IMG/VR virus record: IMGVR_UViG_3300023171_000017
Location: 1 to 53,931 of that record
Direction: 5' to 3' (one strand)
Source of the DNA: a virus
Length of the DNA: 53,931 nt
Shown: positions 6,977 through 51,924 of the stretch, one piece after another
How positions within the stretch are numbered: the first letter of the stretch is position 1
Layout: each line of letters starts with the position of its first letter
Position numbers and translations under genes: made by a program
Notes under the pieces: generated by a model
Told to the model about the DNA's origin: nothing
Databases searched by the model: none
What the model saw: only the letters and a program-made list of their open reading frames with translations

Positions 6977-6992
6977 ACTCTTATTATACGTA

Positions 6993-7067: not shown

Positions 7068-7075
7068 ATCTGTTT

Positions 7076-7153: not shown

Positions 7154-7156
7154 GTA

Positions 7157-7230: not shown

Positions 7231-7236
7231 GAATTT

Positions 7237-7311
7237 TGGTAGCTCCTGATGGAATCGAACCATCATCTGTGCGTCCGAAGCGCACCGTTCTATCCGTTAT
7301 ACTAAAGAGCT
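7237..7311 (-). tRNA. tRNA-Arg (TCG)
   Basis: Acceptor AGCTCTT/AGGAGCT, A73, CCA. Anticodon arm GTGCG-CTTCGGA-CGCAC gives TCG; T-loop TTCGATT. Confidence 0.92.
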
Positions 7312-7423: not shown

Positions 7424-7508
7424 TGGTTGCGGGGACGGGATTCGAACCCGTGTATCTTGCGACAAAGGGATATGAGCCCTCCGAGAATGACCACTTCTCA
7501 ACCCCGCT
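7424..7508 (-). tRNA. Initiator tRNA-fMet (CAT) with expanded variable arm
   Basis: AGCGGGG/CCCCGCA acceptor with an A1-A72 mismatch, three G-C pairs at the bottom of the anticodon stem (GAGGG/CCCTT) and loop CTCATAT: all initiator marks. T-loop TTCGAAT, A73, CCA. The variable region is about 13 nt and holds a TGTC-GCAA-GATA hairpin, far longer than in usual initiators. Confidence 0.88.
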
Positions 7509-7513
7509 ATATG

Positions 7514-7588
7514 TGGTCGTCCCTCTAAGATTCGAACTTAGGACCTTCGCCATGTAAGGGCGCTGCTCTACCGCTGAGCTAAGGGACG
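7514..7588 (-). tRNA. tRNA-Val (TAC)
   Basis: Acceptor CGTCCCT/AGGGACG, A73, CCA. Anticodon stem CGCC/GGCG with loop CTTACAT gives TAC; T-loop TTCGAAT. Confidence 0.93.
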
Positions 7589-7596
7589 TTATTGTT

Positions 7597-7670
7597 TGGT
7601 CGGTGTAGGTGGTTCTGCCCCACCGTTGACAGAATATAAGTCTGCGGTTCTACTATTGAACTATACACCA
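7597..7670 (-). tRNA. tRNA-Ile (TAT) with non-canonical T-loop GGCAGAA
   Basis: Acceptor TGGTGTA/TACACCG (first pair T-G), A73, CCA. Anticodon arm GCAGA-CTTATAT-TCTGT gives TAT, reading AUA. T-stem GGTGG/CCACC encloses GGCAGAA, the same TT-to-GG change as in tRNA-Thr(TGT). Confidence 0.78.
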
Positions 7671-7677
7671 TTATACT

Positions 7678-7754
7678 TGGTTGAACGAGTAGGGTTCGAA
7701 CCTACGATCTCCTGAATATCAGTCAAGTGCTTTAACCAGCTAAGCTATCGTTCA
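7678..7754 (-). tRNA. tRNA-Ile (GAT)
   Basis: Acceptor TGAACGA/TCGTTCA, A73, CCA. Anticodon arm CTTGA-CTGATAT-TCAGG gives GAT; T-loop TTCGAAC. Confidence 0.94.
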
Positions 7755-7761
7755 TTATTTT

Positions 7762-7836
7762 TGGTGGGCTCGGTTGGAATCGAACCAACGTGGTACAGAT
7801 TAAAAGTCTGCTGCTCAACCACTGAGCCACGAACCC
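7762..7836 (-). tRNA. tRNA-Lys (TTT), first of the array
   Basis: Acceptor GGGTTCG/CGAGCCC, A73, CCA. Anticodon stem CAGA/TCTG with loop CTTTTAA gives TTT; T-loop TTCGATT. Confidence 0.94.
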
Positions 7837-37895: not shown

Positions 37896-38147
37896 ATGAG
37901 CAAACCAGTGAAACAATACAACGCGGTCACGATGAAGAACGGTGTCACACGACAGGTTCCAACTCAATACCACAAACCAAGCGGTAAGAAGAAGACCGTC
38001 TCTATGACGTTACCTATCGCACTTACCGAGGTGGTAGAAAATCTCGCGAACATCGACTTTAACGATAACAAGAGCAATGCGTACGAGACGCTACTATTAG
38101 AAGCTCTAGAAAGCAGGGGTTTAAATGTACAGCAAATCAATGAATAG
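37896..38147 (+). CDS. Small DNA-binding protein, ribbon-helix-helix-like
   Basis: 83 residues from MSKPVKQYNAVTM. Residues about 30-75 (KKKTVSMTLPIALTEVVENL ... LLEALESRG) read as a beta strand plus two helices, the MetJ/Arc layout. Basic N-terminal arm. Likely a transcription regulator, first gene of a rightward set with two further HTH proteins. Leaderless start. Confidence 0.7.
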   Translation: MSKPVKQYNAVTMKNGVTRQVPTQYHKPSGKKKTVSMTLPIALTEVVENLANIDFNDNKSNAYETLLLEALESRGLNVQQINE

Positions 38148-38583
38148 AGCAGCTGAGTGTCGTAAGCTGATGCCAAAGCTGTTCAAGGTAGAGCACGAGC
38201 TTATCGGTAATCAAATCAAACGTGATGTAGCTATCTTCAAAGACTTCGCTACAGGTGGGTACACGTACGAGTCACTGGGTCAGAAGTATAACAAGCTACG
38301 CGGTTCACGTATCTCACAGATCGTGAAGAAGGTCGAGTATCAAATTAAGAACCCGAACCAACCCGACCCGCAAATCACTGACCAAACCCTATGGCGACGC
38401 AACCGAAACATCTACGAAAAGTGGTGTACTGGTGAATATAGTATCTACGACCTATCTACGAAGTACAACCTCACCGAAGCGCGTATCAATCAAATCATCA
38501 AAGATGTCACCCGCAACGAAGAACTCCGACGCGCCAGAGAGGACTTCAACGAACCACTCATAAGCGAGATGGTCAAACGATAA
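38125..38583 (+). CDS. Protein with two tandem helix-turn-helix repeats
   Basis: 152 residues. Two related units: YTYESLGQKYNKLRGSRISQ and YSIYDLSTKYNLTEARINQI, each a helix, turn and recognition helix ending S/NQI(V/I)K. The repeats look like sigma-70 region 4 or Mor-type HTHs. ATG 38125 (SD AGGGG) overlaps the upstream gene by 23 nt. Probably a phage transcription factor. Confidence 0.72.
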   Translation: MYSKSMNRAAECRKLMPKLFKVEHELIGNQIKRDVAIFKDFATGGYTYESLGQKYNKLRGSRISQIVKKVEYQIKNPNQPDPQITDQTLWRRNRNIYEKWCTGEYSIYDLSTKYNLTEARINQIIKDVTRNEELRRAREDFNEPLISEMVKR

Positions 38584-39940: not shown

Positions 39941-40264
39941 TTACTTGCTTAGTGGGATAAAGTAGTAAACAGATTTTTTACTATTAGTTAGTTCTAAAAT
40001 GTTTTTTACCTTGTGTGCTAGTAGTTCCTTGCCGTATACAATCTGCATAGTGGTTGTAACTACCTTGTCGCCCTCGGTGTAGCGTATCACGTGTTGGCGG
40101 TTTACTTTTTTACCCGCTTCGTCCCGTACGCTTGACGCTTTACCCTCTACACTTTTGACAATCTGCTTGCGATAATCTTGGGCAACTTGTAACTTGTGCT
40201 TAGGTACTGTAACTTTTGCTTTAGTTGTTTTTGCTTTAGTGGTTGTAGCTTTAGTGCTTACCAT
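39941..40264 (-). CDS. Small basic protein, paralogue 1
   Basis: 107 residues from MVSTKATTTKAKTTKAKVTV. Shares KAKVTVP-x-HKL, IVKS(V)-x-GKA(S/T)S-x-RDEAGKK-x-NRQHVI and YGKELLAH with the protein at 40719-41021 over the whole length. Lys/Thr-rich arm then a compact beta-rich body. Possibly nucleic-acid binding. Leader of about 60 nt with GAGG before ATG; box promoter upstream. Confidence 0.75.
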   Translation of the reverse strand: MVSTKATTTKAKTTKAKVTVPKHKLQVAQDYRKQIVKSVEGKASSVRDEAGKKVNRQHVIRYTEGDKVVTTTMQIVYGKELLAHKVKNILELTNSKKSVYYFIPLSK

Positions 40265-40328
40265 AATGTTATACCTCAGACGCTTATAATTATAATTGTA
40301 GTAGTCGCGTCCCTCTCTACTGTTTATA

Positions 40329-40369: not shown

Positions 40370-40718
40370 ATAATCTTTACGGATTTATGGCGATGGTATA
40401 GCACGTCCTCACAACACAGGACGAGGATACGGGCGGAATGTTTTCACGTGAAACTGCCACGGCCTCTCGCCTCCCTGCTCGGTCCCCCAGGCCGCCTTTC
40501 TTTTCTTTCGCCTTACCTAAGATTCATTTGCCAGCCTTAGCCGCCATGCGGGCGCCCCACTACCGAATAGCCTGTAGCGGATTACATTTGTCTGGCTTAG
40601 CCCAGCAGCGGTGTGATCGCGTCCTCTGTATGCAGGACTAATAGCTGTCAGACCTCACCAGATCCCCTGCCTGAGCTTGGAGTAGCGTGACCCACCAATC
40701 ACGCTATCCTATGCCTAA
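40370..40718. other. GC-rich structured non-coding region with a parS-like palindrome
   Basis: About 350 nt without a credible gene, markedly richer in GC than its neighbours. It contains GTCCT/AGGAC (40406-40423) and TAGCGTGA/TCACGCTA (near 40684-40709) hairpins, GC-rich inverted segments around GGCCT/AGGCC, and a segment AGCCTGTAGCGGATTACATTTGT that matches AGCCTGTGGTGATTTGCATTTGT near 41205 at 18 of 23 positions. It may encode structured RNA or be a DNA site (maintenance, replication). Confidence 0.45.
40440..40455. promoter_or_regulatory. parS-like palindrome
   Basis: GTTTTCACGTGAAACT matches the bacterial ParB site TGTTTCACGTGAAACA at 13 of 16 positions, with 13 consecutive bases (TTTCACGTGAAAC) identical. 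No ParA/ParB gene is in the window. Confidence 0.4.
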
Positions 40719-41021
40719 CTAAGCAACTGGTACGAAGTAATAGACACTGCCCTTGCGGTTCGTAAGCTCTAAGATGTCCTTGCTAGTGTGTGCAAGTAAC
40801 TCTTTCCCGTAGATGATTTGTAGGGTAGCTGTAACGACTTTGTCGCCTTCGAGGTAAGTGATAACGTGTTGACGGTTAATCTTCTTGCCTGCTTCGTCAC
40901 GTAAGCTGGTAGCCTTACCTGTTACTGACTTGACGATGTTCTTGCGAAATGTTTTAGCCACTTCGAGTTTGTGGGCTGGTACTGTTACCTTAGCCTTAAC
41001 TGGTGCTTTGGTTGCTGTCAT
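40719..41021 (-). CDS. Small basic protein, paralogue 2
   Basis: 100 residues (MTATKAPVKAKVTVPAHKLE...). Homologous to 39941-40264 along its length; both end in a YYF(I/V)P motif. SD AAGGAGA 8 nt before ATG, leader of about 45 nt, box promoter upstream. Nucleic-acid binding is a guess from the basic arm. Confidence 0.75.
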   Translation of the reverse strand: MTATKAPVKAKVTVPAHKLEVAKTFRKNIVKSVTGKATSLRDEAGKKINRQHVITYLEGDKVVTATLQIIYGKELLAHTSKDILELTNRKGSVYYFVPVA

Positions 41022-41070
41022 AATATCTCCTTGTGATTATGATTATATGGGTATCTCTACCACTGTAAGT

Positions 41071-41107
41071 ATTATCTCATAGGCGACGATAAAATACAAT
41101 AGGTTTT
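41071..41107 (-). promoter_or_regulatory. Box promoter: AAAACCTATTG-type
   Basis: Minus strand AAAACCTATTG (41107-41097), TTGTAT, 17-nt spacer, GATAAT (41076-41071). Confidence 0.7.
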
Positions 41108-41645
41108 TGGCACATCAGGATTCCACTGGATACCGTCCGGATCGGCAGTAAAGCCGTAGAACTGGGGAGTATGCCACCTGGAGTGAGGCTTTGGCAAGTA
41201 GCCTGTGGTGATTTGCATTTGTTCGCCCTTGTTTCGTGGCTGTATAGTGCAGCAGCCTACCCGTGCTGGAAGAAGCCAGGTTCTTGTGGATTCTAGGAGC
41301 TCTGAGATAACGCGGTTCTGGGAGGCCTGGGTTAGCTGGATACCTAAAACTTCAGTATTCGGGGGGTATGCTGAAATCTGCTGGTTTTAATCCAGGTAGT
41401 ACAGGATTCGTAAGTCTGGCTTCGGATGGTGTAGCTGCCAGGAGGTCGTTGGCAATCCAGAGCTTCAATTCACGGATTTGGGCTGGTCGTTGGCAAAAAA
41501 CGCGTTCAATTCGGCAAAAACAAGCCATGATTGGCAAAAAGGGGGGCGGATTCCTACTCCAAGAGTGTTCAGAAAAGTTGGAGATTGTGGCTTGCGTTCC
41601 GCCCTTTCCGTTGTTCTTGTCCTGCTTTGGCTATCTAGGTCTGGG
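41108..41645. other. Long non-coding region with iteron-like repeats
   Basis: About 540 nt, no SD-led ORF and no family match in any frame. It holds repeated short words (TCCAG, GGATTC, TTTGGCAA), the AGCCTGT...CATTTGT segment shared with 40.5 kb, and the four phased GGCAA repeats at 41444-41540. A degenerate box promoter at its right end would transcribe it leftward into 40719-41021. Candidate origin, centromere-like or RNA region. Confidence 0.45.
41444..41540. repeat. Iteron-like phased repeats (GGCAA/GGCAAAAA)
   Basis: GGCAA begins at 41451, 41492, 41513 and 41533, spacings of 41, 21 and 20 nt, near multiples of two helical turns. The first two share GGTCGTTGGCAA; the last three continue as GGCAAAAA with in-phase A-tracts, which bend DNA. 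Confidence 0.6.
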
Positions 41646-41682
41646 ATTAGGTGCGTTTTCGTGATAAAACACAATACTTTTT
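41646..41682 (-). promoter_or_regulatory. Degenerate box promoter
   Basis: Minus strand AAAAAGTATTG (41682-41672), TTGTGT, 17-nt spacer, CCTAAT (41651-41646). The TTTTATC after the -35 also matches other members. The -10 is weak. Confidence 0.4.
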
Positions 41683-41767
41683 CCTCTTGGCTTTCTTCAC
41701 GCAATTCTTTATAAAGCCTTTAGTATACGGTCTTATACTCTCTATATAGCAATCAGACACAGGAGAA

Positions 41768-41794
41768 GGGTTATTGGCGAGATTTTTTTCGTTT
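41768..41794. repeat. GCCGAGGTTTTTTCG repeat, copy 1
   Basis: GGGTTATTGGCGAGATTTTT variant of an element also found at 42049-42075 and 42843-42862; positioned just upstream of the promoter of 41854. Confidence 0.45.
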
Positions 41795-41853
41795 CGGTTG
41801 AGGCGTGTGCGTTCTTTACAATAAGCGTCCTACACGTCATAATAATGGGTAAG

Positions 41854-42039
41854 ATGGAGATACTTGAATACCCCCTAGAGGACTACGCAGTAACGAAAGA
41901 TGGGCGCGTGTGGTCCTTTCGATCGGAGCGTTGGCTATCGGAGTTTATGGTTAATGGGCGTAGGGCGGTAACGATGACCGTTGAAGGCAAACGCTATACT
42001 AGGCTCGTTGATGTACTTATACGTTCTATACACGAATAG
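41854..42039 (+). CDS. NUMOD4-like small protein
   Basis: 61 residues from MEILEYPLEDYAVTKDGRVW; an ATG at 41845 directly touches the CATAAT -10 so 41854 is preferred (TTTACA-18-CATAAT upstream). YAVTKDGRVWS and KRYTRLVDVLI resemble NUMOD4 modules that bind DNA at the N-terminus of HNH homing nucleases, but the nuclease part is absent. It could be a stand-alone module or a remnant. Confidence 0.65.
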   Translation: MEILEYPLEDYAVTKDGRVWSFRSERWLSEFMVNGRRAVTMTVEGKRYTRLVDVLIRSIHE

Positions 42040-42048
42040 CACACAAAA

Positions 42049-42075
42049 GGGTTCTTTGCCGAGGTTTTTTCGCCT
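42049..42075. repeat. GCCGAGGTTTTTTCG repeat, copy 2
   Basis: GGGTTCTTTGCCGAGGTTTT then TTCGCCT, between the convergent ends of 41854-42039 and 42074-42511. Confidence 0.5.
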
Positions 42076-42511
42076 ATGCGTAAATGTATAGACCGTTGCG
42101 ACTAAGCAGTTCGCCTCGACTAAACTCAAGTACCTTTGCGATGTCTGCGTCCGTAAGCATAGCTTGTTCAGCAGGTAGACCGAATGCCGCTGTATCTCTC
42201 ATTCTCATACGACTGTATTGAAGAATTAGCTTGTGGTAGAGGGCGTGGTTGATACGGTGATATACAGTTACTTCCTTAATATCGTAGTACCTGAACCTTA
42301 CTGTTTGCCCTGTACGTTTCACAACTTGGTGAATATAGACGTTTGCCGCTTTTTCTACGTCAACGTGAGGTCCCGCTTTTACGAGTTCAAGAGCTTTGCG
42401 ACCGCCCTTTTTTACACCCATATAAACGCCTACTCGACTTGGTTTGTTCTTCTCTCCTGGTATGAAGCTCATAGCAGTATCAGTAACTTGTCCTAAATAA
42501 TTGGTTTTCAT
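42074..42511 (-). CDS. Hypothetical protein, 145 aa
   Basis: Start at MKTNYLGQVTDTAMSF (SD AAGGGAA); the longer ORF runs into the leader. Basic beta-rich N-half (SRVGVYMGVKKGGRKALELV), then helical with HRINHALYHKLILQYSRMRM. No known domain. Leader of about 50 nt from the box promoter. Same orientation and promoter type as the two basic paralogues, so co-regulated. Confidence 0.72.
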   Translation of the reverse strand: MKTNYLGQVTDTAMSFIPGEKNKPSRVGVYMGVKKGGRKALELVKAGPHVDVEKAANVYIHQVVKRTGQTVRFRYYDIKEVTVYHRINHALYHKLILQYSRMRMRDTAAFGLPAEQAMLTDADIAKVLEFSRGELLSRNGLYIYA

Positions 42512-42569
42512 TGTAACAGTTCCCTTGATTATGATTATTATACGTTTACTGTTTTGTTCGTATGCTACT

Positions 42570-42606
42570 ATTATACAATAAGGATAGACTAAATACAATA
42601 GGTTTT
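42570..42606 (-). promoter_or_regulatory. Box promoter: AAAACCTATTG-type
   Basis: Minus strand AAAACCTATTG (42606-42596), TTGTAT, 17-nt spacer, TATAAT (42575-42570). Confidence 0.72.
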
Positions 42607-42699
42607 TTCTACTCTAGGAGACCGTGGATTGTTACTCTTCACAGGCAGCAGCGGGGTAAAAAGCCGTGATTTGAGTAAGCCTGGTGTTTGATTTGGGTG
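42607..42699. other. Intergenic stretch between divergent promoters
   Basis: About 90 nt between the leftward box promoter and the rightward TTTACA promoter. Contains AGGCAGCAGCGGGG, similar to CCAGCAGCGG at 40.6 kb. No gene seen. Confidence 0.4.
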
Positions 42700-42728
42700 T
42701 TTACAATACCTTAGCCTTGTTGTATAAT
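42700..42728 (+). promoter_or_regulatory. Strong promoter of the right operon
   Basis: TTTACA (42700-42705), 17-nt spacer, TATAAT (42723-42728). Drives the leader RNA and the 43-49.6 kb operon. Confidence 0.7.
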
Positions 42729-42734
42729 GTATAT

Positions 42735-42820
42735 AAGCGATAGCTGTAGAGTTCACTCGTAACTTGAGTGCTACAGGTCATTGCGGCAGTTGATAGTACT
42801 CCCTTTATGGGGGTTCTTTT
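42735..42820 (+). ncRNA. Leader RNA with attenuator-like terminator
   Basis: About 85 nt from the expected start to a terminator. A two-part hairpin CTGTAG(42744)-CACTC/GAGTG-CTACAG(42776) is followed by a linker and the ACTCCC/GGGGGT terminator. The operon's first gene begins about 150 nt further on, so the element may be a riboswitch-like attenuator or a stand-alone sRNA. Confidence 0.5.
42798..42820 (+). terminator. Terminator / attenuator in the operon leader
   Basis: ACTCCC/GGGGGT stem, loop TTTAT, then TCTTTT. Confidence 0.65.
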
Positions 42821-42842
42821 AATTGCAAGGCAAGAACAGATG

Positions 42843-42862
42843 TTGCCGAGGTTTTTCAGCCT
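42843..42862. repeat. GCCGAGGTTTTT repeat, copy 3
   Basis: TTGCCGAGGTTTTTCAGCCT, 17 of 20 bases like copy 2, inside the operon leader after the attenuator. Confidence 0.5.
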
Positions 42863-42915
42863 GTCTCCAGCGAGTCGAGATTGCGACGTGGGGCGGTGAA
42901 AGTGCCTCCTTATAT

Positions 42916-42936
42916 ACATTTGTTTTAGCCTGCCCC
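42916..42936 (+). repeat. CATTTGT-N5-CCTGCCCC motif, copy 1
   Basis: Non-coding copy, 37 nt before the first operon gene. Matches copy 2 (49019) at 19 of 21 positions. Confidence 0.65.
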
Positions 42937-42972
42937 CAAATCATAATAATTATTACTCAAAGGAGAGCGATA

Positions 42973-43197
42973 ATGGCAAACACACCACACGACAACGTTG
43001 GCGAAGTATTGGTCCTCAAAGACTTTTCGACACCTGACGTTGCCTTTTCACTAAACGCAACCGTTGCTAGCGATGGCTCGGTTGTACTGTATGACTACAA
43101 GCGTACGGGCTCAAACCACGATAGCAAAATCATTGTTATCAACGAGGACGAGTTCGAGCAACTTGCTTCATACATGGGCTATATCAAAGAGGTATAG
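42973..43197 (+). CDS. Hypothetical protein, 74 aa
   Basis: Start at MANTPHDNVGEVLVLKDF with SD AAAGGAGA; the upstream ORF extension is leader. Small beta-rich domain (VLKDFSTPDVAFSLNATVAS) ending YMGYIKEV. First gene of the right operon. Unknown function. Confidence 0.75.
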   Translation: MANTPHDNVGEVLVLKDFSTPDVAFSLNATVASDGSVVLYDYKRTGSNHDSKIIVINEDEFEQLASYMGYIKEV

Positions 43198-43198
43198 C

Positions 43199-43561
43199 AT
43201 GGCCGAGTTTACACCAAACAAGTTTGAGCCGATCAAGGGCGTTCACCGCATTGAAAAAGTGGACTACCGACGATGGGCTCTCGATAAGAACCTACAGATT
43301 TTAGGGCGACAAAACTATGTTCTTGCAGATTTGGTACAGGCACTCAAAGACTACAAACAACCTTGGAAAGAGAATGCACGGCAGTCGATGACTTACCCAC
43401 TCAAAATGGATAAGCATATTACCGTATACCTCTTAGACAATGGTGTTGATGCCTTTGTATTGCTTGTAGACGATATGCAAGGCAGTTCATATAATCGCAA
43501 TCAATTCGAGGTTACAGGAGAGCAACAGATAGTTGTTTTCTTGGTATCGGAGAACGCATAA
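43199..43561 (+). CDS. Hypothetical protein, 120 aa
   Basis: MAEFTPNKFEPIKGVHRIEK..., beta-rich with VYLLDNGVDAFVLLVDDMQG. Starts one nt after the previous stop and overlaps the next ATG. Not recognised. Confidence 0.75.
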   Translation: MAEFTPNKFEPIKGVHRIEKVDYRRWALDKNLQILGRQNYVLADLVQALKDYKQPWKENARQSMTYPLKMDKHITVYLLDNGVDAFVLLVDDMQGSSYNRNQFEVTGEQQIVVFLVSENA

Positions 43562-44040
43562 TGAATAACAGTTTACGCCTTGAGCAAATGGTCAGCGAAA
43601 TAACGAAGAAAGGGAACGTTCGAGCAACTTTGCAACGGCGAACCAGTTCAAACGTATTCGCTGAGGACAAGTTTATATACTCATACGGTCATCACTATAT
43701 ACTAGGAACCCTTATAGGTAGTACCTGGCTGGTGAACACCGAACGGTATTCGACATCGACAGGACGACATCTTAGCTACTTGCGTTCAGCACTTAGCAAG
43801 AATGGCGTTACGAGCGATAAAATCATATACACGCCTATCGACACCAACTCATTAGAGCCTGCAGCGATTATTCGCAACGGTATTCGATTGTTGGAAACAG
43901 CTTCAATGGAAGTCGCAAGACAACTTGAGAAGACTCGTAAAGGCAGTGGTAACAACCTGCGACTTATTCGTGAACTACAGGAGATCGAGCAGTCGCAACG
44001 TCGCCTAGTGGTTCTAGGTGAGATGAGAGGAGGTCAGTAA
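43561..44040 (+). CDS. Hypothetical protein, 159 aa
   Basis: Basic protein: beta-rich first half (NVFAEDKFIYSYGHHYILGT), long helical C-terminal half with RLIRELQEIEQSQRRLVVLG. Coupled to its neighbours. No motif recognised. Confidence 0.75.
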   Translation: MNNSLRLEQMVSEITKKGNVRATLQRRTSSNVFAEDKFIYSYGHHYILGTLIGSTWLVNTERYSTSTGRHLSYLRSALSKNGVTSDKIIYTPIDTNSLEPAAIIRNGIRLLETASMEVARQLEKTRKGSGNNLRLIRELQEIEQSQRRLVVLGEMRGGQ

Positions 44041-44736
44041 ATGGCAAACCAAAGTTCTGCCACAGTGAGCATCAGTGCCCACCCAAAGATAGCCAAAGAG
44101 CTTTTTGCATACATCGAGGCAGTTCAGAGTGATAGTGAATATAACATTATCAACGAGGACGCTTTAGCTGAGATTGACTACAAAGAGTTCGACGGCGAAG
44201 AATACGTCAGCGTTGGTGGGTGGGCCACTGGTCGCTGGGCCTATTCAAACAACCTACAAAGTTACTTTGCGGGAAGGTTAGTTAAAGAAAGCTGGCGTGA
44301 CGGTGAAGGTAAGAATGCCCACATCACGTTCGGTAAGTTAGTTGCGGCAATTAAAAAGCACGATGGCGACTTCGAGATTGAATATCAAGACGAAGAAGGC
44401 GGTGCAGGGTTCATCGACATCGGCACTCTCTCTATTAACAAGGAGAATGTAGACAATGACGAACCATACATCGACAGCCACACCGAGGACTACAACGTAA
44501 CTAATATGATGGAAGTATTCGGGTATGACGAGTGGGAAGCAATCGACATAATGTATGGCGATGAAGTTTCAACCGCTTGGTCAGATTACAAGGACGCGAA
44601 CGGTGCTATTGAAATAGCGGACGATTTCGTGTCTGAGTACAGTTCAGATATATATGACGGCAACTTTGACGCTACAGAAGTAGTCCTCGAAGAAAACCGT
44701 AAAGCAAAAGAGGGTGAGGCGATCAAAACGCCTTAG
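44041..44736 (+). CDS. Hypothetical acidic protein, 231 aa
   Basis: Starts directly after the preceding stop. Very acidic, with aromatic VGGWATGRWAYSNNLQSYFA and DEWEAIDIMYGDEV stretches; mixed alpha/beta. The acidity and size would fit a DNA mimic or inhibitor, but this is only a thought. No family recognised. Confidence 0.75.
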   Translation: MANQSSATVSISAHPKIAKELFAYIEAVQSDSEYNIINEDALAEIDYKEFDGEEYVSVGGWATGRWAYSNNLQSYFAGRLVKESWRDGEGKNAHITFGKLVAAIKKHDGDFEIEYQDEEGGAGFIDIGTLSINKENVDNDEPYIDSHTEDYNVTNMMEVFGYDEWEAIDIMYGDEVSTAWSDYKDANGAIEIADDFVSEYSSDIYDGNFDATEVVLEENRKAKEGEAIKTP

Positions 44737-44790
44737 CCCAGTTACATACGTTCAACTTTATTTTAATTCTCTTGAAAGGAGAAACACACT

Positions 44791-45057
44791 ATGAACAATT
44801 ATTCAAACGGACAAAAAGTAATCGTAATCGCACCAGAAGGCTACATCTTCGCAGGTATTCTTGCCGATGCTATGCTACCAGGGCACCTTCGCATTGAACA
44901 GTACAAGCAAATTGTTGGCTGGGACAGCGACAAGGGAGTCGGTGCAGTTGCAAACGGTACAGTTGAAGCCCAACTTACTGAAGGTTCAGAATGGATTGAG
45001 CTCCCTGAGTTCAGCTACCGTGTCGTCATTGACGCCACCAAAATGAAAGGTCTGTAA
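44791..45057 (+). CDS. Small beta-rich protein, 88 aa
   Basis: MNNYSNGQKVIVIAPEGYIF..., likely SH3/KOW-like barrel. Strong SD GAAAGGAGA after a 54-nt gap. Overlaps the next ATG. Unknown function. Confidence 0.75.
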   Translation: MNNYSNGQKVIVIAPEGYIFAGILADAMLPGHLRIEQYKQIVGWDSDKGVGAVANGTVEAQLTEGSEWIELPEFSYRVVIDATKMKGL

Positions 45058-45305
45058 TGATTGGATACGGCGCTCACAAAGAAATCAAAGAGGAAATGAC
45101 GTATATGCTTCCTCGGGTGAGACTCGAAGGACCAGCTAAGACGAGCATTGACAAAGGGCACTATATTCGCCCAACTTATACTAAATCTGGTAAAGCTCCG
45201 TTCTCACAGAGTATCAATGAAGCCTTTATTCGTAAGGGTTTGATGGAGATACGAGTTCGGCTGAACTTTGCAACTGATAAAGACTTTAAAGGAGTTAAAT
45301 CATAA
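45057..45305 (+). CDS. Small basic protein, 82 aa
   Basis: MIGYGAHKEIKEEMTYMLPR..., basic, with GHYIRPTYTKSGKAPFSQSI. Ends overlapping the MoxR ATG (TAATG). Unknown; could be a MoxR-system partner by position. Confidence 0.72.
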   Translation: MIGYGAHKEIKEEMTYMLPRVRLEGPAKTSIDKGHYIRPTYTKSGKAPFSQSINEAFIRKGLMEIRVRLNFATDKDFKGVKS

Positions 45306-46195
45306 TGAGCAAAACATCACTAATTGAAAAGATGCTGGACCGTATCAAAGAGCAACCTCGTATTGCCTTAGCAATCGAAGGTCAAGCAGGTATGGGCAAA
45401 TCAGCAATCGTTGAGAGCTGGGCAAACGAGAATGATATTCCCGTTGTCAAGCTACTCGCAAGCACACTGAGCGAGGAAGACATCGCAGGTGTAATCGTAG
45501 CCGACCACGAAAGTCATACAGGTGAGTACTACTCCCTTGGCCTTCTTGACAAGGTTGTAAAAGAACGTACAGTATTGTTCCTAGATGAGCTTAATACCTC
45601 TGTAAAGGAAACAGCAGATGCTTTGCTGACACTTATTGAGTCACGGCACTTACCAGATGGTACAAAGCTCCACCCTGAAACAATCATCGTGGCAGCAATG
45701 AACCCTGCGATTGCCTACGGTAACTATGAACTATCTCCTGCAATGCGTAACCGTTTTGCGTGGGTACGTTGGACACAAGACGCTAAAGAATGGTGGACGA
45801 ACTTTGGTGTTGATGTGCCTGAAGACGATGACGTTCGAGTTATGGTTGACAAGCTAATCAACGAGGACGGTTTGGTATTCACAGACGACAAGGGCTTCAC
45901 AGAAGAAACCAACGTCTTTACTACTCCTCGATCTTTGACTCGGCTCTTGCAATTCGCAACATCAGTGCAGGACGTTAAATTGTTCTCACCAAGTTTCATC
46001 GGTAAGGACGCAGTTGCACTTATTGATGCCTACAAAGAAGTAGACGTTGATATTCGCGGCAATAGTTTCTTTAGTCGTGAAAAAGCTGAACCAAAGGCTA
46101 AGCAAACGGGTGAGAAGGGCGCGACTGGTACTAACGGTATTCAAGTCAGCAGCCTACACGCTCGATTAAGCAAACGTATCGAAGAACGGGAATAA
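45305..46195 (+). CDS. MoxR-type AAA+ ATPase
   Basis: 296 residues. Walker A GQAGMGKS (26-33), Walker B TVLFLDELN (about 93-101), sensor region IIVAAMNPA and Arg fingers near SPAMRNRFAWVRW identify a MoxR-family AAA+. These remodel partner proteins and are typically encoded with a VWA protein, as here (next gene, 1 nt away). The C-terminal part (residues about 250-296) is basic and low-complexity. It probably loads metal or remodels a substrate together with the VWA/zincin protein. Confidence 0.88.
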   Translation: MSKTSLIEKMLDRIKEQPRIALAIEGQAGMGKSAIVESWANENDIPVVKLLASTLSEEDIAGVIVADHESHTGEYYSLGLLDKVVKERTVLFLDELNTSVKETADALLTLIESRHLPDGTKLHPETIIVAAMNPAIAYGNYELSPAMRNRFAWVRWTQDAKEWWTNFGVDVPEDDDVRVMVDKLINEDGLVFTDDKGFTEETNVFTTPRSLTRLLQFATSVQDVKLFSPSFIGKDAVALIDAYKEVDVDIRGNSFFSREKAEPKAKQTGEKGATGTNGIQVSSLHARLSKRIEERE

Positions 46196-46196
46196 T

Positions 46197-47399
46197 ATGA
46201 AAATCTATGACGACCAGGACAAGCTAGACGCACTCGTGAAATCCTTGAAGCGTCATGGCTATACTTCATACGGTGTTGCCCTACAGCAACTCGGTACTCG
46301 ATGGACAGATGAAAAGGGCGTAATCGGTTTTACCAACCCGCAAGGAATAGTAATTAACGGCACTCTTAACATCAACGAGCAATCGTTGGTTGCCCGTCAC
46401 GAAGTATTGCACACGCTCCTTCGCCACCTAGACGACAAAATCTGGGGTGACGGACGTGATGACCACGAAATTCGGAACATGGCTGGTGACTTAGAGTTGT
46501 CCCACTACTACGATGAGGTTGACAGCCGACACTTTAATATCGGTGGTCCTCTAGCAGGTGGTTTGAACGTGCAACGACGTGCCCACAATAAGTACTACGG
46601 CAAAGACGCCATTGAAATCTATGACGACTTAATCAAGAACGGCAAGGCAAAAGGTCAACCGCTTGGTGATTGTATTCAAGGAGATGGCAAAGGTCAAAGT
46701 AGTGGGGCGAGCGCAGGAGACCTTGACGACAAGAAGAAGCAGGATACATCTGTTTCGCCTAGTCCCCAGCCAGGCGGTATGAGCGATAAAGTTAAGAAGG
46801 ACTTACTGAAGAAAATCAAAGTCGAGCGACAGGAACGATACGAGCAAGCAGACATTCAAAAAGGTTTGCGGGACGAGGTCGATATTGACGCTGAACTTGA
46901 ATTGTTCTACTCCCTTAACCGTTACTTCATCAAAGAGCAACAGTTGAGCCGAAACAAAAGCTATGCACGACCAAACAAGAAATACCAAGGCGCTATCGTC
47001 AAGAAGGGCCGACGTAAGACTCGCAGCCCAGGTAAAACTTTAGTTGTTTATATTGACCGTTCGGGAAGTATGAGCGATGAAAAGACTGGTAAAGCCGAGC
47101 GTATTCTTGCGAACACCGTCAAAAGGCTTAACCACGTTACGGTGATTACCAAATACTTTAGCGATGAGGTATCCCTTAGCGGTAACATTGGTGGTGGTAC
47201 TAACTACTCGGCCGTGATTGATGATATTAACATTAACAAGTATCGGGACGTGGCAATTGTAACCGACAACGACAACGACGGGCGAATGAATGTCGCTGAT
47301 GTCGATGCCGTATGGATCGTTTCAGTTGAGCCAGGTTACGGCACTCGTATTGCTAACCGTTTCAATGCAACAATGCTTGTGGAAACGGAAATACGATAA
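46197..47399 (+). CDS. VWA-domain protein with N-terminal zincin-like metallopeptidase
   Basis: 400 residues. N-terminal domain contains VARHEVLHTLLRH with H68-E-x-x-H72, the zinc protease motif of the DUF2201-like family. A low-complexity linker follows (about 165-205). The C-terminal VWA-like domain has VVYIDRSGSMSD near residue 285 (the D-x-S-x-S MIDAS) and GGGTNYSAVIDD. Paired with the MoxR ATPase upstream. Such pairs are proposed as chaperone/protease modules in stress and conflict systems; the substrate here is unknown. Confidence 0.87.
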   Translation: MKIYDDQDKLDALVKSLKRHGYTSYGVALQQLGTRWTDEKGVIGFTNPQGIVINGTLNINEQSLVARHEVLHTLLRHLDDKIWGDGRDDHEIRNMAGDLELSHYYDEVDSRHFNIGGPLAGGLNVQRRAHNKYYGKDAIEIYDDLIKNGKAKGQPLGDCIQGDGKGQSSGASAGDLDDKKKQDTSVSPSPQPGGMSDKVKKDLLKKIKVERQERYEQADIQKGLRDEVDIDAELELFYSLNRYFIKEQQLSRNKSYARPNKKYQGAIVKKGRRKTRSPGKTLVVYIDRSGSMSDEKTGKAERILANTVKRLNHVTVITKYFSDEVSLSGNIGGGTNYSAVIDDININKYRDVAIVTDNDNDGRMNVADVDAVWIVSVEPGYGTRIANRFNATMLVETEIR

Positions 47400-47635
47400 T
47401 GGTGATACTCGATAGGAAATGGAAACACGACCTGTTTCAATTAGGGGCTTTTATTTTAATAGCAACTATTCTGCATAAGGCTGTCGGTGATGACTTGGTT
47501 ATGTACCTAGTATCACTGGCATACCTTATCGGGTTCGGTGTATCAAACTTTCACGAGGGCGAGATGCGAGCAGACGTTCGCAACGAACTTCGTAAGAGGA
47601 TAGCTGAGAAAGAGGCTAATAATGACAAAGGCTAA
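47399..47635 (+). CDS. Two-pass membrane protein, 78 aa
   Basis: Two hydrophobic segments (LFQLGAFILIATILHKAV and LVMYLVSLAYLIGFGV, about 12-50) and a basic/charged C-terminal helix. Overlaps both neighbours. Unknown role; adjacent to the MoxR-VWA pair. Confidence 0.72.
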   Translation: MVILDRKWKHDLFQLGAFILIATILHKAVGDDLVMYLVSLAYLIGFGVSNFHEGEMRADVRNELRKRIAEKEANNDKG

Positions 47636-47921
47636 AGTGAACCTACCAGATTGGGGTAACTACGTTGCTCCTCAAGTCAAAGACGGTGTACCTATCACTC
47701 GGGAGCACTATACGTTCGATGAGCGTGTAATGCTTATGATGAAGGATAGACACCCAGACCGCAGTGATGCCCTTATCCGATCTTCGGTGAGCATACTGTA
47801 TTCGTTAAGCGGTTGGTCGCCCTCAGACGGTGAACCAAGCGAGTATACGGAGAACTATATAACTAACCTGCTTGTGATGAGCATAGTAGAAGAGGAGCGA
47901 CAAAATGGTCAAGACGATTGA
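47622..47921 (+). CDS. Hypothetical protein, 99 aa
   Basis: MTKAKVNLPDWGNYVAPQVK... helical, with DRHPDRSDALIRSSVSILYS. No motif. Overlaps neighbours by 14 and 17 nt. Confidence 0.72.
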   Translation: MTKAKVNLPDWGNYVAPQVKDGVPITREHYTFDERVMLMMKDRHPDRSDALIRSSVSILYSLSGWSPSDGEPSEYTENYITNLLVMSIVEEERQNGQDD

Positions 47922-48408
47922 ACTCGATGACGATTTAGCCGAGTTTTTCAAGACGACAGCTGAACTGCTTAACACGCAGGACAACCGACACACTGACACG
48001 CCTATCTTTCGTATATACGATGAGATAAAAGTTGAAAAGCGTGATGGCTGTGGGGACCACACTGAGCGTCTGACCTACGAGGGCGCAGAAGAACATTATT
48101 GTCATACCTGTACGGATATTTTAGAAGAGAGCGATTTCGACTACGATAAGCTGCCCCAGCTAGGTGAAGAAGGCTGTTATTGCGACGGTCTTGAAGATGC
48201 CCACTGGACGTATGACATCGACCTTCTACCCGCGGCTAGTACCTACGACGGGGTAGCGTTCCTGACCGAGAAGGAAGCTCAAGAGTACCTAGACGACAAC
48301 CACTACCACTTCGGTAAGGGCGCGGTCGTATACGCTGAGTCAGCCTTTCGCAACTACGAACTGAAAACAATTATAAAAGGCATCAAAGCTATAGGAGCAC
48401 AACTGTAA
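47905..48408 (+). CDS. Cys-rich acidic protein, 167 aa
   Basis: Acidic. Cysteines at CGDHTERL, HYCHTCTDIL and GCYCDG (about residues 48-95) may form a zinc site with neighbouring His. The C-terminal TEKEAQEYLDDNHYHFGKGA is common in small phage proteins. Function unknown. Confidence 0.72.
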   Translation: MVKTIELDDDLAEFFKTTAELLNTQDNRHTDTPIFRIYDEIKVEKRDGCGDHTERLTYEGAEEHYCHTCTDILEESDFDYDKLPQLGEEGCYCDGLEDAHWTYDIDLLPAASTYDGVAFLTEKEAQEYLDDNHYHFGKGAVVYAESAFRNYELKTIIKGIKAIGAQL

Positions 48409-48692
48409 TGGCAATTTTTGAAAGAACACCCAAGAACATAGGCTACCTTACGGTTACTTATGACGAGCTAATGTCGTACAGCAGGATACCTGAATTGGTT
48501 TGCGATAATTGCAACAACCTGTTGAAACACGATGAGCTTGCCGTGGTGATACCAGTATTGAACAGTGCTTATTGCCCAACCTGTACACCTGATTATATGG
48601 AGAGTGTGAAAGACTACCCAGAAGACAGGCAGATCAGGGCAAGGCGAGAAGAGTTCTGGTGCAACTTTTACGGTATCGAGGCAACAGTATGA
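48408..48692 (+). CDS. Small zinc-ribbon protein, 94 aa
   Basis: CDNCNNLLKHDE and YCPTCTPDY (two C-x2-C pairs, about residues 33-36 and 57-60) make a zinc ribbon. Charged helical tail. Coupled by overlaps to both neighbours. Likely nucleic-acid or protein binding. Confidence 0.75.
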   Translation: MAIFERTPKNIGYLTVTYDELMSYSRIPELVCDNCNNLLKHDELAVVIPVLNSAYCPTCTPDYMESVKDYPEDRQIRARREEFWCNFYGIEATV

Positions 48693-48871
48693 ACAAAGCA
48701 CCTAAAGAAATAACACTGGCTAAGTTAGATGTTCTCGTAATGCCTAACGGTGAGATACTGTGTGCAGGCAAAACTATCGGTTGGGTTACAAGCGAGCCTG
48801 AGCTAGGTGAACATCTAAGTGATTTCAAGAATGGTATCACGGGACAACCGATTGCAAAGGAGAACGTATGA
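48689..48871 (+). CDS. Hypothetical protein, 60 aa
   Basis: Start MNKAPKEITLAKLDVLVMPN at the ATGA overlap; the longer ORF start at 48659 is rejected. Small beta hairpin protein (VLVMPNGEILCAGKTIGWVT). Unknown. Confidence 0.7.
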   Translation: MNKAPKEITLAKLDVLVMPNGEILCAGKTIGWVTSEPELGEHLSDFKNGITGQPIAKENV

Positions 48872-49008
48872 GTTTCTTTGAAGACTATGTGCAGGACGGG
48901 TTATGTTGCATGACTTGCGGCACGTTGATTGACGGTGATGAGCCTGGGTACCCACGGTCCTGCTGTGATGGCCTTGCCGATGACGAGGACGAAGATGAGT
49001 CTGCGTGA
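48868..49008 (+). CDS. Cys-rich micro-protein, 46 aa
   Basis: MSFFEDYVQDGLCCMTCGTL ... SCCDGLADDEDEDESA. CC-x-x-C and a CC pair in 20 residues form a likely zinc knuckle, with a run of acidic residues at the end. ATG and TGA each overlap the neighbouring genes. Confidence 0.65.
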   Translation: MSFFEDYVQDGLCCMTCGTLIDGDEPGYPRSCCDGLADDEDEDESA

Positions 49009-49237
49009 GGCGGTGAAAACATTTGTTCGAGCCTGCCCCGCTCCAAGGATTCGTTCGCATCGGGTCATCGTCCATCGTAGAAAAGGTCGTGGGCGAGTGA
49101 AAAGCAAGTACGATATTATGTATGGTACAAAAGGCAAGTGGGCATTGCTGTGCGGTCAATGGGTTACGGGCGATATGAACGTAACGACAGACGATAGAAA
49201 AGTAACGTGTATGAAATGTTTAAGGAGAATGCGATGA
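48995..49237 (+). CDS. Basic zinc-finger protein, 80 aa
   Basis: Start MSLREAVKTFVRACPAPRIR (ATG 48995, within the previous gene's end). Basic middle (RVIVHRRKGRGRVKSKY) and C-terminal VTCMKCLRRMR. Cys at 15 and the final CMKC pair could bind zinc with His. A copy of the CATTTGT-N5-CCTGCCCC motif lies inside its 5' coding region (49020-49039). Confidence 0.72.
   Translation: MSLREAVKTFVRACPAPRIRSHRVIVHRRKGRGRVKSKYDIMYGTKGKWALLCGQWVTGDMNVTTDDRKVTCMKCLRRMR
49019..49039 (+). repeat. CATTTGT-N5-CCTGCCCC motif, copy 2
   Basis: Within the coding region of 48995-49237, where it is read T-F-V-R-A-C-P. Matches copy 1 at 19 of 21 positions. Confidence 0.65.
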
Positions 49238-49401
49238 GCGTGAGTTTACGAGAAGTCCTTGAAGGGGCTGAGTACGATATAAACACCTACAATGACGCTA
49301 TCTGGCTTTTGTCGAAGCGAAGTGAGTTTGAAGATTTACTCGAAGAGGCAGAAGAAACAGTTGAACGTATTGGTGAAGAACGTGAGAGGGATTTCGAATG
49401 A
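49234..49401 (+). CDS. Small acidic helical protein, 55 aa
   Basis: MSVSLREVLEGAEYDINTYN..., helical and Glu-rich (LLEEAEETVERIGEERERD). SD AAGGAGA. Its SLREVLEG start recalls SLREAVK of the upstream gene. Unknown. Confidence 0.7.
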   Translation: MSVSLREVLEGAEYDINTYNDAIWLLSKRSEFEDLLEEAEETVERIGEERERDFE

Positions 49402-49583
49402 TCGACAGGATAACCTACAGAATTACGGACGAAACACCTGCACATATCAGGTTCAGCTTATGGGTGAACGGTGGTTTAGTATGCAGCCCTGGTGGTATTT
49501 GCTTGCGAGTCGATGAATTTGCCCCTTTTATTGAAAAGTTAGGGGCTATAAGCGACTCTGAGTGGTACAATAGCTTAGATTAG
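49398..49583 (+). CDS. Small hypothetical protein, 61 aa
   Basis: MIDRITYRITDETPAHIRFS..., beta-rich first half and helical end. Overlaps the previous stop (ATGA). Last gene of the right operon before the next box promoter. Confidence 0.7.
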   Translation: MIDRITYRITDETPAHIRFSLWVNGGLVCSPGGICLRVDEFAPFIEKLGAISDSEWYNSLD

Positions 49584-49585
49584 AT

Positions 49586-49622
49586 AAAAGGTATTGTATT
49601 TTATCTTGAAAGGTGCTATGAT
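49586..49622 (+). promoter_or_regulatory. Box promoter variant (AAAAGGTATTG), leaderless
   Basis: AAAAGGTATTG (49586-49596), -35 TTGTAT (49594-49599), 17-nt spacer, TATGAT (49617-49622), 6 nt to ATG 49629. Confidence 0.7.
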
Positions 49623-49628
49623 AGTAGT

Positions 49629-49859
49629 ATGAGTAAGCAAATTATAGTCAAATACATACCAACGGGCACTTTTATGAGTGTCGGTCGTGTCTTTTGGTTA
49701 GAGTGTCAGCACGAAAACTATGAAGAAGACGGGCAACGTTTGTATTGTGATGATTGCGATAAGATGGGCTACCGATACGAAGAAACTGAATACGAGGGTA
49801 CTGATGATGACGGGAACGTTGAGACCAGTACTCACACGTTAATTGAATGGTTTGAATAA
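49629..49859 (+). CDS. Small zinc-site protein, 76 aa
   Basis: Beta-rich, with CQHENYEEDGQRLYCDDCDK (C-x-H...C-x2-C, about residues 26-44) as a likely zinc site, and an acidic C-terminus. Leaderless start precisely 6 nt after the -10. Precedes the FtsK-like ATPase. Confidence 0.72.
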   Translation: MSKQIIVKYIPTGTFMSVGRVFWLECQHENYEEDGQRLYCDDCDKMGYRYEETEYEGTDDDGNVETSTHTLIEWFE

Positions 49860-49877
49860 CCAGAAAGGAGATATGTT

Positions 49878-50594
49878 ATGAGTAACAAGGCAAGCACACT
49901 GTTCGATGATTTAATGGTTGAACGATACACGAAGAACCCTGAAAAAAGTCGGGTTAGCGTAGGCTACACAGAAACAGGTCAAGAAGTTAACTTCGGCTTA
50001 AAGCAGATGGGTAACACACTTATCAGTGGTATTAGTCGTGCAGGTAAGACACAAATGGCATTGCACCTACTGGAATCAGTCACAAAGTTCGCTGATGTCG
50101 CTGTTTATTCGGTTAAACCCTCTGACTTTTTTATGTTTAGAAACGATATTATGATTGTTGACGATAGCAACACTATGAGCAAGTTAATTCGACGTACAGT
50201 CGGGGAGCTTGAGCGTCGTGCAGACCGAGTGCGTAAAGCAAGCGAGAAGGCGGGTGAGGTTGTTGAATGTACCGAGAAACCGATGATTATAATGATTGAC
50301 GAGTTCGCGGCATACAGTCGCACGATGGACGAGGCAACTGAGATAGCTCTTGAGAAAATTGCAGGTATTGGTATGGGGTTGAATGTATATCTTTATATTA
50401 GCTGTTTGCTACCTAGCAAGAAAATCTTAGGTGATATTCGGGACCAGTTTATTACGAGTATTTCGTTTAGACACCGTGACCGATACGGCAGTCAAGCAGC
50501 GATAGGCACAAGTGAAGCAACCCGATTAGAGTTGCGGCACTGTATCGTGCAGAACGTGATTTCGACCTTTATGGTTACAAGTCTTAAAAAGTAA
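49878..50594 (+). CDS. FtsK/HerA-like DNA-translocase-type ATPase
   Basis: 238 residues. Walker A GISRAGKTQ (51-59), strand VAVYSVKPSDF, Walker B KPMIIMIDEF (about 133-142), then an Arg-finger region and QFITSISFRHRDRYGSQAAIG typical of FtsK/SpoIIIE-type motors. It lacks the membrane and gamma domains, like the compact versions in plasmids and phages that move or load DNA. SD GAAAGGAGA. Terminator follows. Role in DNA transfer, segregation or replication is inferred. Confidence 0.82.
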   Translation: MSNKASTLFDDLMVERYTKNPEKSRVSVGYTETGQEVNFGLKQMGNTLISGISRAGKTQMALHLLESVTKFADVAVYSVKPSDFFMFRNDIMIVDDSNTMSKLIRRTVGELERRADRVRKASEKAGEVVECTEKPMIIMIDEFAAYSRTMDEATEIALEKIAGIGMGLNVYLYISCLLPSKKILGDIRDQFITSISFRHRDRYGSQAAIGTSEATRLELRHCIVQNVISTFMVTSLKK

Positions 50595-50602
50595 AAAGAA
50601 CA

Positions 50603-50632
50603 AGCTAGAGAGCAATCTCTGGCTTTCTTTTT
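50603..50632 (+). terminator. Intrinsic terminator after the FtsK-like gene
   Basis: AGCTAGAG/CTCTGGCT eight-pair stem then TTCTTTTT. Confidence 0.85.
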
Positions 50633-50924
50633 ACCTTCACGATCAGCCTGTGTTCTTTGGATTAAAACCCCGCTGCGTCCTGTAGCCTGCGACCGCCCCA
50701 CACACTCGCACGTTACGCTACGGTAATACAGTACCATCTGATGAATCCACGAATAGTTGTATAGCCTGATGTTTGAAAAATACTTGACTTATGATACTGG
50801 ATTTGTTTGAGAATGTGTGAAAAACGAGTACACACTTTTTCTACACACTTTTTTTTGACGAAACCTTCGCATCTCCAATAAATCCACGATCAACTCCAAC
50901 TGGGTAATGAAGCCGTGACCTCTG
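50633..50924. other. Non-coding region with short direct repeats
   Basis: About 290 nt with no supported gene. TACACACTTTTT is repeated at 50829-50840 and 50842-50853 (13-nt period) next to a T-tract, and TAGCCTG occurs at 50682 and 50764. Possible protein-binding or origin-like site. Confidence 0.4.
50829..50853. repeat. Tandem TACACACTTTTT repeats
   Basis: Two identical 12-mers separated by one base, followed by further T residues. Confidence 0.55.
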
Positions 50925-50953
50925 TTGACGCGGTACGTGCCCTGTAGTATAAT
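50925..50953 (+). promoter_or_regulatory. Leaderless-type promoter for 50961
   Basis: TTGACG (50925-50930), 17-nt spacer, TATAAT (50948-50953), 7 nt (AGGGTAA) to ATG 50961. Confidence 0.68.
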
Positions 50954-50960
50954 AGGGTAA

Positions 50961-51125
50961 ATGTTTGATTTTGCTATACAGCTACCACCGATTGAAAAGG
51001 TACTCGGGTGCCCTTGGGGGAGAGCGGTCTGGCGGCACGGGCACACTACGGGTCGTTTCGTTCGACACGGCAGGTTGCAGTATGTACAAAGGCACAATCG
51101 AAAACACTTGGTGGTGATGGGCTGA
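50961..51125 (+). CDS. Small basic protein, 54 aa
   Basis: MFDFAIQLPPIEKVLGCPWG ... KHLVVMG, rich in Arg and His. Its opening resembles that of the next protein (MFDYIIELPA), suggesting tandem duplication or a shared N-terminal motif. TGA overlaps the next ATG. Function unknown. Confidence 0.66.
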   Translation: MFDFAIQLPPIEKVLGCPWGRAVWRHGHTTGRFVRHGRLQYVQRHNRKHLVVMG

Positions 51126-51319
51126 TGTTCGACTATATTATCGAGCTACCAGCGCGGCATATCGTACTGAAGAACAAGTTTTATCAGGCTCAGTTACCAG
51201 CGAAACCCGATATAGGGCAGTTCAAGTTCTTCAAGCTAGAGCGGTATCTTTTCAGGCGTAGTCGCACGGGGTGTTACCTCCTTGTGAACGATAACCCAGA
51301 AGTGGCGGCAATAGGATAA
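51125..51319 (+). CDS. Small basic protein, 64 aa
   Basis: Start MFDYIIELPARHIVLKNKFY at the TGATG overlap; the longer ORF start at 51008 lies in the upstream gene. Beta-rich and basic (FKFFKLERYLFRRSRTGCYL). Overlaps the next ATG. Not recognised. Confidence 0.68.
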   Translation: MFDYIIELPARHIVLKNKFYQAQLPAKPDIGQFKFFKLERYLFRRSRTGCYLLVNDNPEVAAIG

Positions 51320-51924
51320 TGACTCAAGAAGAGATGTACGAAATTATGCAAAAGCATTTGTCTAGCCCTGCCCCCTGGCGGCAGAAACTTTCTGGTTCTT
51401 GGGACGGTTTTCGCAAAGCTAATCACTATACTGGACCAGTAAAGAACGACATCTTTCTTCGACCACCTGTTGAACATGACAACCCGTTTGTTTTTGAGAT
51501 GAAGAAACCCGCGAAAGTTGATCGCGGGAAGAAAAATAACATTGAACACATGATTAAGGGAAGAATGGGTCAGTTGAAACATTCGAGAAGCGCCTATACA
51601 ATCACGACGCTCGACAGCGGAGAAGTCGAGATGGTAGACCACACTGGGGGGTTAATACATTCGTTTGACCTTGCCCGCCACAAGTCAATCTCAGTTTCTA
51701 CACCATATCCCCCTCAATGGGACACAACGTGGCACCACGGTGAAGCTGAGCTGAGAGCTAACACTACATTCGAGATTGAAACCGAAGACATAATATCACT
51801 TTCTGGTGAACGTCACACGGTTATGAAGGGATTGAAACGCAGCGATAGTTACTTTGATGACTTTGCGAAATCACGACTTGCGCAGGGTGGAATTATGCAC
51901 ATTGATGAGAACCTCGACTGGTAA
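51319..51924 (+). CDS. Hypothetical protein, 201 aa
   Basis: N-terminal helical part with HLSSPAPWRQKL (its DNA contains motif copy 3), basic middle (KKPAKVDRGKKNNIEHMIKG), beta-rich C-half with GEVEMVDHTGGLIHSFDLAR. No family recognised. Last gene of the rightward run; converges on the leftward structural genes. Confidence 0.75.
   Translation: MTQEEMYEIMQKHLSSPAPWRQKLSGSWDGFRKANHYTGPVKNDIFLRPPVEHDNPFVFEMKKPAKVDRGKKNNIEHMIKGRMGQLKHSRSAYTITTLDSGEVEMVDHTGGLIHSFDLARHKSISVSTPYPPQWDTTWHHGEAELRANTTFEIETEDIISLSGERHTVMKGLKRSDSYFDDFAKSRLAQGGIMHIDENLDW
51354..51374 (+). repeat. CATTTGT-N5-CCTGCCCC motif, copy 3
   Basis: In the 5' coding region of 51319-51924, read in a different frame from copy 2 (H-L-S-S-P-A-P), so the conservation is at nucleotide level. 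Confidence 0.65.

Follow-up and report, generated by a model that had tools for sequence, protein, structure and literature searches.

Antitermination sites of the nut and put types in lambdoid phages are oriented with transcription and are located in leaders. The stoperators of Cluster A mycobacteriophages (L5, Bxb1, TipsytheTRex) are short, asymmetric, non-palindromic sequences that occur many times per genome in one orientation with respect to transcription, mostly away from promoters (PMC9283540, PMC6550527); in the L5 type, a monomeric protein that has two DNA-binding domains recognises them (PMC9283540). The Start Associated Sequences (SAS) of Cluster K mycobacteriophages are also short asymmetric repeats in one orientation and are conserved across related phages; their usual position is 3-7 bp upstream of a start codon, and they show a partial match to the ribosome binding site (PMC3203893). 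Dispersed, asymmetric phage sites in a single orientation are a known class; the sequence and the phage lineage described here appear to be undescribed.

The DNA that was analysed, referred to here as the window, is a virus record of 53,931 bases that encodes a portal protein, a tape measure protein, SSB, RecT and a polynucleotide kinase/RNA ligase, together with 22 tRNAs predicted by ARAGORN. Its source is an uncultured tailed phage with a genome of approximately 84 kb. The window was compared to the IMG/VR relatives G001 (83,905 bases), G002 (86,053 bases, reversed), G003 (84,056 bases, with contig ends that overlap by 127 bases) and G004 (15,879 bases), and to a sixth contig, a further relative of 16,544 bases. 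In the long alignment blocks shown, DNA identity to the window was approximately 72-96% for G001, G003 and G004 and, outside variable stretches, approximately 99% for G002. Wider relatives were sought via the conserved proteins used, which returned the same phages and one 16.5-kb contig, and nothing further. No portal relatives were found among named phages, and bacterial genomes searched with one neighbouring protein family yielded no relatives. The tRNA genes form a minus-strand cluster at 4285-7836 (at least 22 genes), in which ARAGORN and Rfam disagreed on a few extra tRNA-like genes; many of the spacers carry CATATTTGG on the plus strand, corresponding to the CCA-encoding 3' ends, followed by AATATG.

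Scanning of the window with CATTTGT-N5-CCTGCCCC located exactly three copies, all on the plus strand, at 42917-42936, 49020-49039 and 51355-51374, which confirmed the three copies reported in the initial annotation at coordinates one base lower. The exact pattern was absent from 100 dinucleotide shuffles. Since the gap pattern had been chosen after the data were seen, all 15-base patterns split into 5-10 bases, a gap of 0-10 and the remaining bases (66 splits) were also counted if they occurred at least three times on the plus strand. Outside the tRNA cluster (4.6-7.8 kb) the CATTTGT-N5 pattern was the sole triple, and none of 20 shuffles contained one; chance recurrence, which had been regarded as essentially excluded, is indeed unlikely even with free choice of the gap. 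In IMG/VR the exact pattern was found in 37 stretches, of which the contigs that were not relatives held one match each, as chance predicts.

These three copies belong to a family of eight asymmetric sites in one orientation within one 11-kb block, as follows.

Site A, 40525-40544, plus strand: non-coding, CATTTGCCAGCCTTAGCCGC; matrix scans and alignment of five genomes
Site B, 40585-40604, plus strand: non-coding, CATTTGTCTGGCTTAGCCCA; recovered with a matrix built from D, E and F
Site C, 41216-41235, plus strand: non-coding, CATTTGTTCGCCCTTGTTTC; alignment and matrix scans
Site D, 42917-42936, plus strand: exact copy 1, in a leader
Site X, 46747-46766, plus strand: inside gene 46197-47399, CATCTGTTTCGCCTAGTCCC, peptide TSVSPSP
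Site E, 49020-49039, plus strand: exact copy 2, 25 nt into gene 48995-49237, peptide TFVRACP
Site F, 51355-51374, plus strand: exact copy 3, 36 nt into gene 51319-51924, peptide HLSSPAP
Site F2, 51658-51677, plus strand: inside gene 51319-51924, CATTCGTTTGACCTTGCCCG, peptide HSFDLAR

The family was defined by reciprocal matrix scans. When the matrix was trained only on the non-coding copies A to D from four genomes, the next-ranked matches in the window were 51658, 49020, 46747 and 51355, all on the plus strand, after which the scores dropped. All four scored above 16, a threshold at which shuffles of the window gave 0.13 matches; by our own arithmetic, the probability that four of four held-out matches would fall on the plus strand in an 11-kb span, if placed anywhere on either strand, is approximately 1e-4. 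A matrix trained on D, E and F alone ranked 51658, 40585, 46747 and 41216 next, again all on the plus strand and in the same block. Site F2 was therefore the best non-training match of the D/E/F matrix and fifth overall with the A-D matrix, site X was a next-ranked match for both, and site A, the weakest member, was absent from the window list of the D/E/F matrix. The combined matrix identified eight sites in the window, all on the plus strand and within 40525-51677, with a clear gap in score thereafter. The same matrix found eight plus-strand sites in G003, eight in G001 with one extra minus-strand match at 31108, and nine sites in G002, in which the region of site E is doubled. The contig ends of G002 carry two diverged copies (83% and 93%) of this region, which reflect either a true duplication or the assembly of two strains into one contig:

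G002, reversed, duplicated E region: 83533-84535 and 1-995; 85119-86050 and 983-1914

The family consensus is approximately WWACATTTGTTYNGSCYTTGCCCC, an asymmetric sequence of about 20 nt with an A/T-rich lead and with information concentrated at CAT, GT, CC around +11/12 and GCCC at +15 to +18. Its direct-repeat character was weak (P = 0.05, 0.23 corrected). The best dyad alignment scored below zero, and the sites were not assigned to the Mor/C binding sites of phage Mu, since no inverted repeat was present. Isolated CATTTGT sequences had also been noted in the non-coding regions near 40583 and 41214 and in an element at 5047-5162. The first two are real plus-strand members of the wider family (40585 and 41216); the third was rejected, as its CATTTGT occurs only on the minus strand (5084) and the longer motif is unmatched there. 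The suggestion that all copies lie close to the 5' end of a gene or of a leader did not hold for the family as a whole, since 46747 and 51658 are hundreds of nucleotides inside their genes.

Alignments showed that the relatives carry the sites at corresponding places. Site A reads CATTTGC in the window and CATTTGT or CATTCGT in the relatives, and is also present in the sixth contig. Site B is the same in every relative, even in G004, where the bases that precede CATTTGT have changed. Site D is identical in all five genomes that cover the position, in contrast to the preceding stretch, which is altered in all relatives but the near-identical G002. Site X is present in three relatives, site F is identical in all relatives that cover the position, and the 18-base core of F2 is identical in three. 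The four gene-borne sites are all on the sense strand, in two reading frames and with four different peptides; the TFVRACP and HLSSPAP translations given previously, in different frames, were correct. At site E, eight of the 24 positions are changed in the G001 sequence (CATTTGTTTGGCCTTGCCGC, also coding and read MTFVWPCRAP) relative to the window, with changes in amino acids. Even so, the matrix score is higher in G001 (25.5) than in the window (20.4), a result that was equalled in none of 20,000 sets of eight substitutions drawn at random. This test covers one event, as F and F2 are unchanged and give nothing to test. Conservation at the nucleotide level regardless of frame was thereby supported, and because the sites encode four peptides in two frames and E keeps its score through eight substitutions, an origin of the copies in one recent duplication of coding DNA was excluded.

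The same data bear on whether D, E and F are alike by accident, through chance and coding constraint. Chance alone is expected to give spaced 15-mers of this kind in two copies, though not in three. In addition, F and F2 hardly vary, and conservation around them is ordinary for the two genomes compared, including at synonymous sites around F. Nevertheless, such an accident is very improbable given that this was the only non-tRNA triple among the 66 patterns, that reciprocal matrices located further sites on the same strand, and that E keeps its score through substitutions.

When compared to the described systems, the sites share with SAS their asymmetry, single orientation and conservation across related phages, but not their position: D is approximately 36 bp upstream of the start codon of the first gene in the plus-strand series, E and F begin 25 and 36 nt into their genes, and X and F2 lie deep inside genes. 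Unlike SAS, the sites carry no ribosome binding site. The likeness to stoperators is that of many asymmetric, non-palindromic sites in one orientation and mostly distant from promoters, here eight, all on the plus strand and on the sense strand when in genes. Stoperators are 13 bp and are present in 20-30 copies genome-wide, whereas the present sites are looser, about 20 nt in length and confined as eight copies to one 11-kb block; the sequence also differs, and where stoperators are bound by the immunity repressor, with a block of elongation, the present sites have a candidate binder.

The single-orientation sites lie in a block that holds one plus-strand gene series, and the leader of this series contains site D:

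Promoter, predicted, sigma-70-like, 42700-42728, plus strand: TTTACA-17-TATAAT, consensus match 11/12, upstream of the D leader
Structured leader RNA with site D, 42730-42980, plus strand

This leader folded far better than shuffled sequences (z = -4.6). The D motif closes the structure, with CATTTGTTTTAGCC paired to GGCAAGAACAGATG (42829-42842), and an inner stem is formed by 42852-42871 and 42888-42901. In the alignment fold of four relatives 96% of cells were paired, compared to 40-49% when slid, and the inner stem had three pairs with two-sided changes. The closing helix at D barely varies; it has no two-sided changes and hence no covariation. Pairing of D was significant in the window and G003, and weaker in G001 and G004. 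Sequences resembling TTGCCGAGGTTTTTTCGCC occur three times on the plus strand of the non-coding control region (41774, 42056 and 42843), the third as part of the folded leader.

These results raise the possibility, which we regard as only slightly less probable than the reading that we prefer, that the sites act in the plus-strand transcript, either as nut/put-like antitermination sites or as sites for an RNA-binding protein, with 42730-42980 as a regulated, structured copy in which the site would be masked in a stem. The strict plus orientation, the sense-strand location of all four gene copies, the strength of the leader fold and the full-length pairing of the D motif to a conserved arm further upstream are consistent with such a signal. 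In addition, the second half of the motif, TTTTAGCCTGCCCC, resembles TTTTTCAGCCTGTCTCC in the leader, and from reading the sequence GGGGCGGTGAAA could pair with either. Like nut and put sites, the copies are oriented with transcription and one is in a folded leader; unlike them, there are eight copies and these lack a common boxA/boxB or put-like fold. Only D folded significantly or had a reproducible local partner, and the set was therefore not placed among nut/put sites. At the other sites no RNA partner or unusual fold was reproducible, the sole isolated match (F2 in G003) being unshared, so that the shared feature is the linear, oriented sequence. An RNA-level role is further weakened by the absence of two-sided changes in the D closing helix, by the location of A to C beside minus-strand genes with no clear plus-strand promoter upstream, and by the Rfam search, in which no covariance model matched the leader or the other sites up to an E-value of 5, so that membership of a known structured regulatory RNA family was also rejected. 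No N- or Q-like protein was identified.

The lack of dyad symmetry and the confinement to one transcription block favour a DNA-binding regulator, with an RNA-level signal a close second. A candidate is encoded 2 kb upstream of the sites:

Mor-like protein with two homologous HTH repeats, 38125-38583, plus strand: Pfam Mor 8e-11, in two stretches

Its internal repeat scored higher than 1000 of 1000 shuffles, and it was the sole HTH-type regulator among the first 25 Pfam families listed in each scan of the main ORFs of the window. The structural model had a pLDDT of 77 and gave no significant fold match. The putative recognition segments stay close between clades in which the protein is approximately 66% identical overall, and sites B and D likewise stay close between these clades. 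The Mor-like protein is inferred from sequence to be the most plausible binder found. By analogy with the two-domain L5-type repressor (PMC9283540), two HTH units in a single chain could allow recognition of an asymmetric site. The match to the Pfam Mor family links the protein to the Mor/C activators of phage Mu, but Mu Mor is reported to bind inverted repeats as a dimer (PMC4390567); here, two HTH repeats are in one chain and the sites have no inverted repeats.

The reading that we tentatively prefer is that the eight sites may be stoperator-like DNA sites at which a phage regulator controls the plus-strand unit at 40-52 kb. A phage-encoded, sequence-specific regulator would bind them as DNA and would control transcription along the unit that starts at approximately 42.7 kb. 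It would act near initiation through the sites of the leader and of the non-coding DNA upstream, and on elongation through those inside genes, as with the Cluster A stoperators. Reciprocal held-out discovery of sites that are all on one strand in one block, their confinement to the block of a single plus-strand gene series, their retention at the same places in relatives with a rise in the E score through eight substitutions, the coding copies in two frames and four peptides with no common RNA fold except at D, and the tandem-HTH protein all argue for this reading. Several observations are against it. The families listed for the window included neither an integrase nor an immunity repressor, so that a role in lysogeny is unsupported; the inverted repeats reported for Mu Mor (PMC4390567) have no counterpart in a motif with no dyad and a weak direct repeat. 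Sites A to C adjoin minus-strand genes, which they may serve instead. At D the motif forms part of a conserved RNA stem, for which DNA binding alone would have no need, and G001 carries the extra match at 31108. As regards the three roles proposed initially, a regulator site is best supported, an RNA-binding signal is possible, with RNA pairing seen at the 42917 copy only, and a recombination boundary found no support.

The minus-strand genes next to sites A to C (39944-40267 and 40722-41021) encode tandem paralogous small basic proteins, approximately 73% identical, of unassigned family and with no recognisable fold. They are side by side in all relatives, and sites A to C are upstream. Near site A, at 40442-40453, there is a palindrome, TTTCACGTGAAA, that is close to bacterial parS. 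In the relatives it occurs only at this place, once or twice (G001 36700 and 36723, G003 7880 and 7902, G004 11637), being doubled in G001, G003 and the sixth contig. As no ParA or partition-type ParB was found, a host ParB may be the target of TTTCACGTGAAA.

It is unlikely that the eight sites are oriented replication, partition or packaging sites used by a phage DNA-handling protein, with the parS-like sequence at 40442 marking a centromere-like region. The restriction of TTTCACGTGAAA to this position in all relatives, approximately 90 bases or less from site A, and an FtsK/SpoIIIE-like family (phrog_1358) encoded in the window are compatible with such a function, but membership of a parABS system was rejected because there was no AAA_31 match and because the only ParB_N match was a weak one that fell below the cut-off and lay at another locus, in an ORF next to an HNH-like gene. 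Furthermore, GC skew has no turn at the region, the spacing is too wide and uneven for iterons, and the sites are not genome-wide, unlike translocation-orienting sequences.

A second repeated family, AAACCTATTGTATTTTATC, is present on both strands upstream of several gene starts (33727, 37854 and 49587 on the plus strand; 40364, 41106, 41681 and 42605 on the minus strand) and also in the relatives. From its sequence it looks like a shared promoter or operator family, as at several copies TTGTAT is located approximately 17 bases before a TATAAT-like box. The eight sites themselves might each start a plus-strand transcript, as promoter elements recognised by a phage-directed RNA polymerase or sigma factor; their one orientation, the A/T-rich bases just before the motif and the copies both before and inside genes would allow this. 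Such a role is also improbable, since the nearest good promoter match is sigma-70-like and approximately 190 bp upstream of D, the AAACCTATTGTATTTTATC family is already upstream of several genes, and the matrix has no second conserved box at a fixed spacing.

The stoperator-like reading has an extended form, which on the sequence evidence we consider improbable, in which the sites would constitute a new oriented code: a 20-nt word read as DNA by a single-chain tandem-HTH regulator, masked in one leader RNA, and tuning elongation across the block. The site set gives a defined 20-nt target together with a candidate binder, and shows that phage coding sequence can carry a second, frame-independent signal. 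Stoperator-type control, in which asymmetric sites within genes and between them affect elongation, is best documented in mycobacteriophages, and a conserved, oriented, partly intragenic set in unrelated environmental phages would show that it is more widely used.
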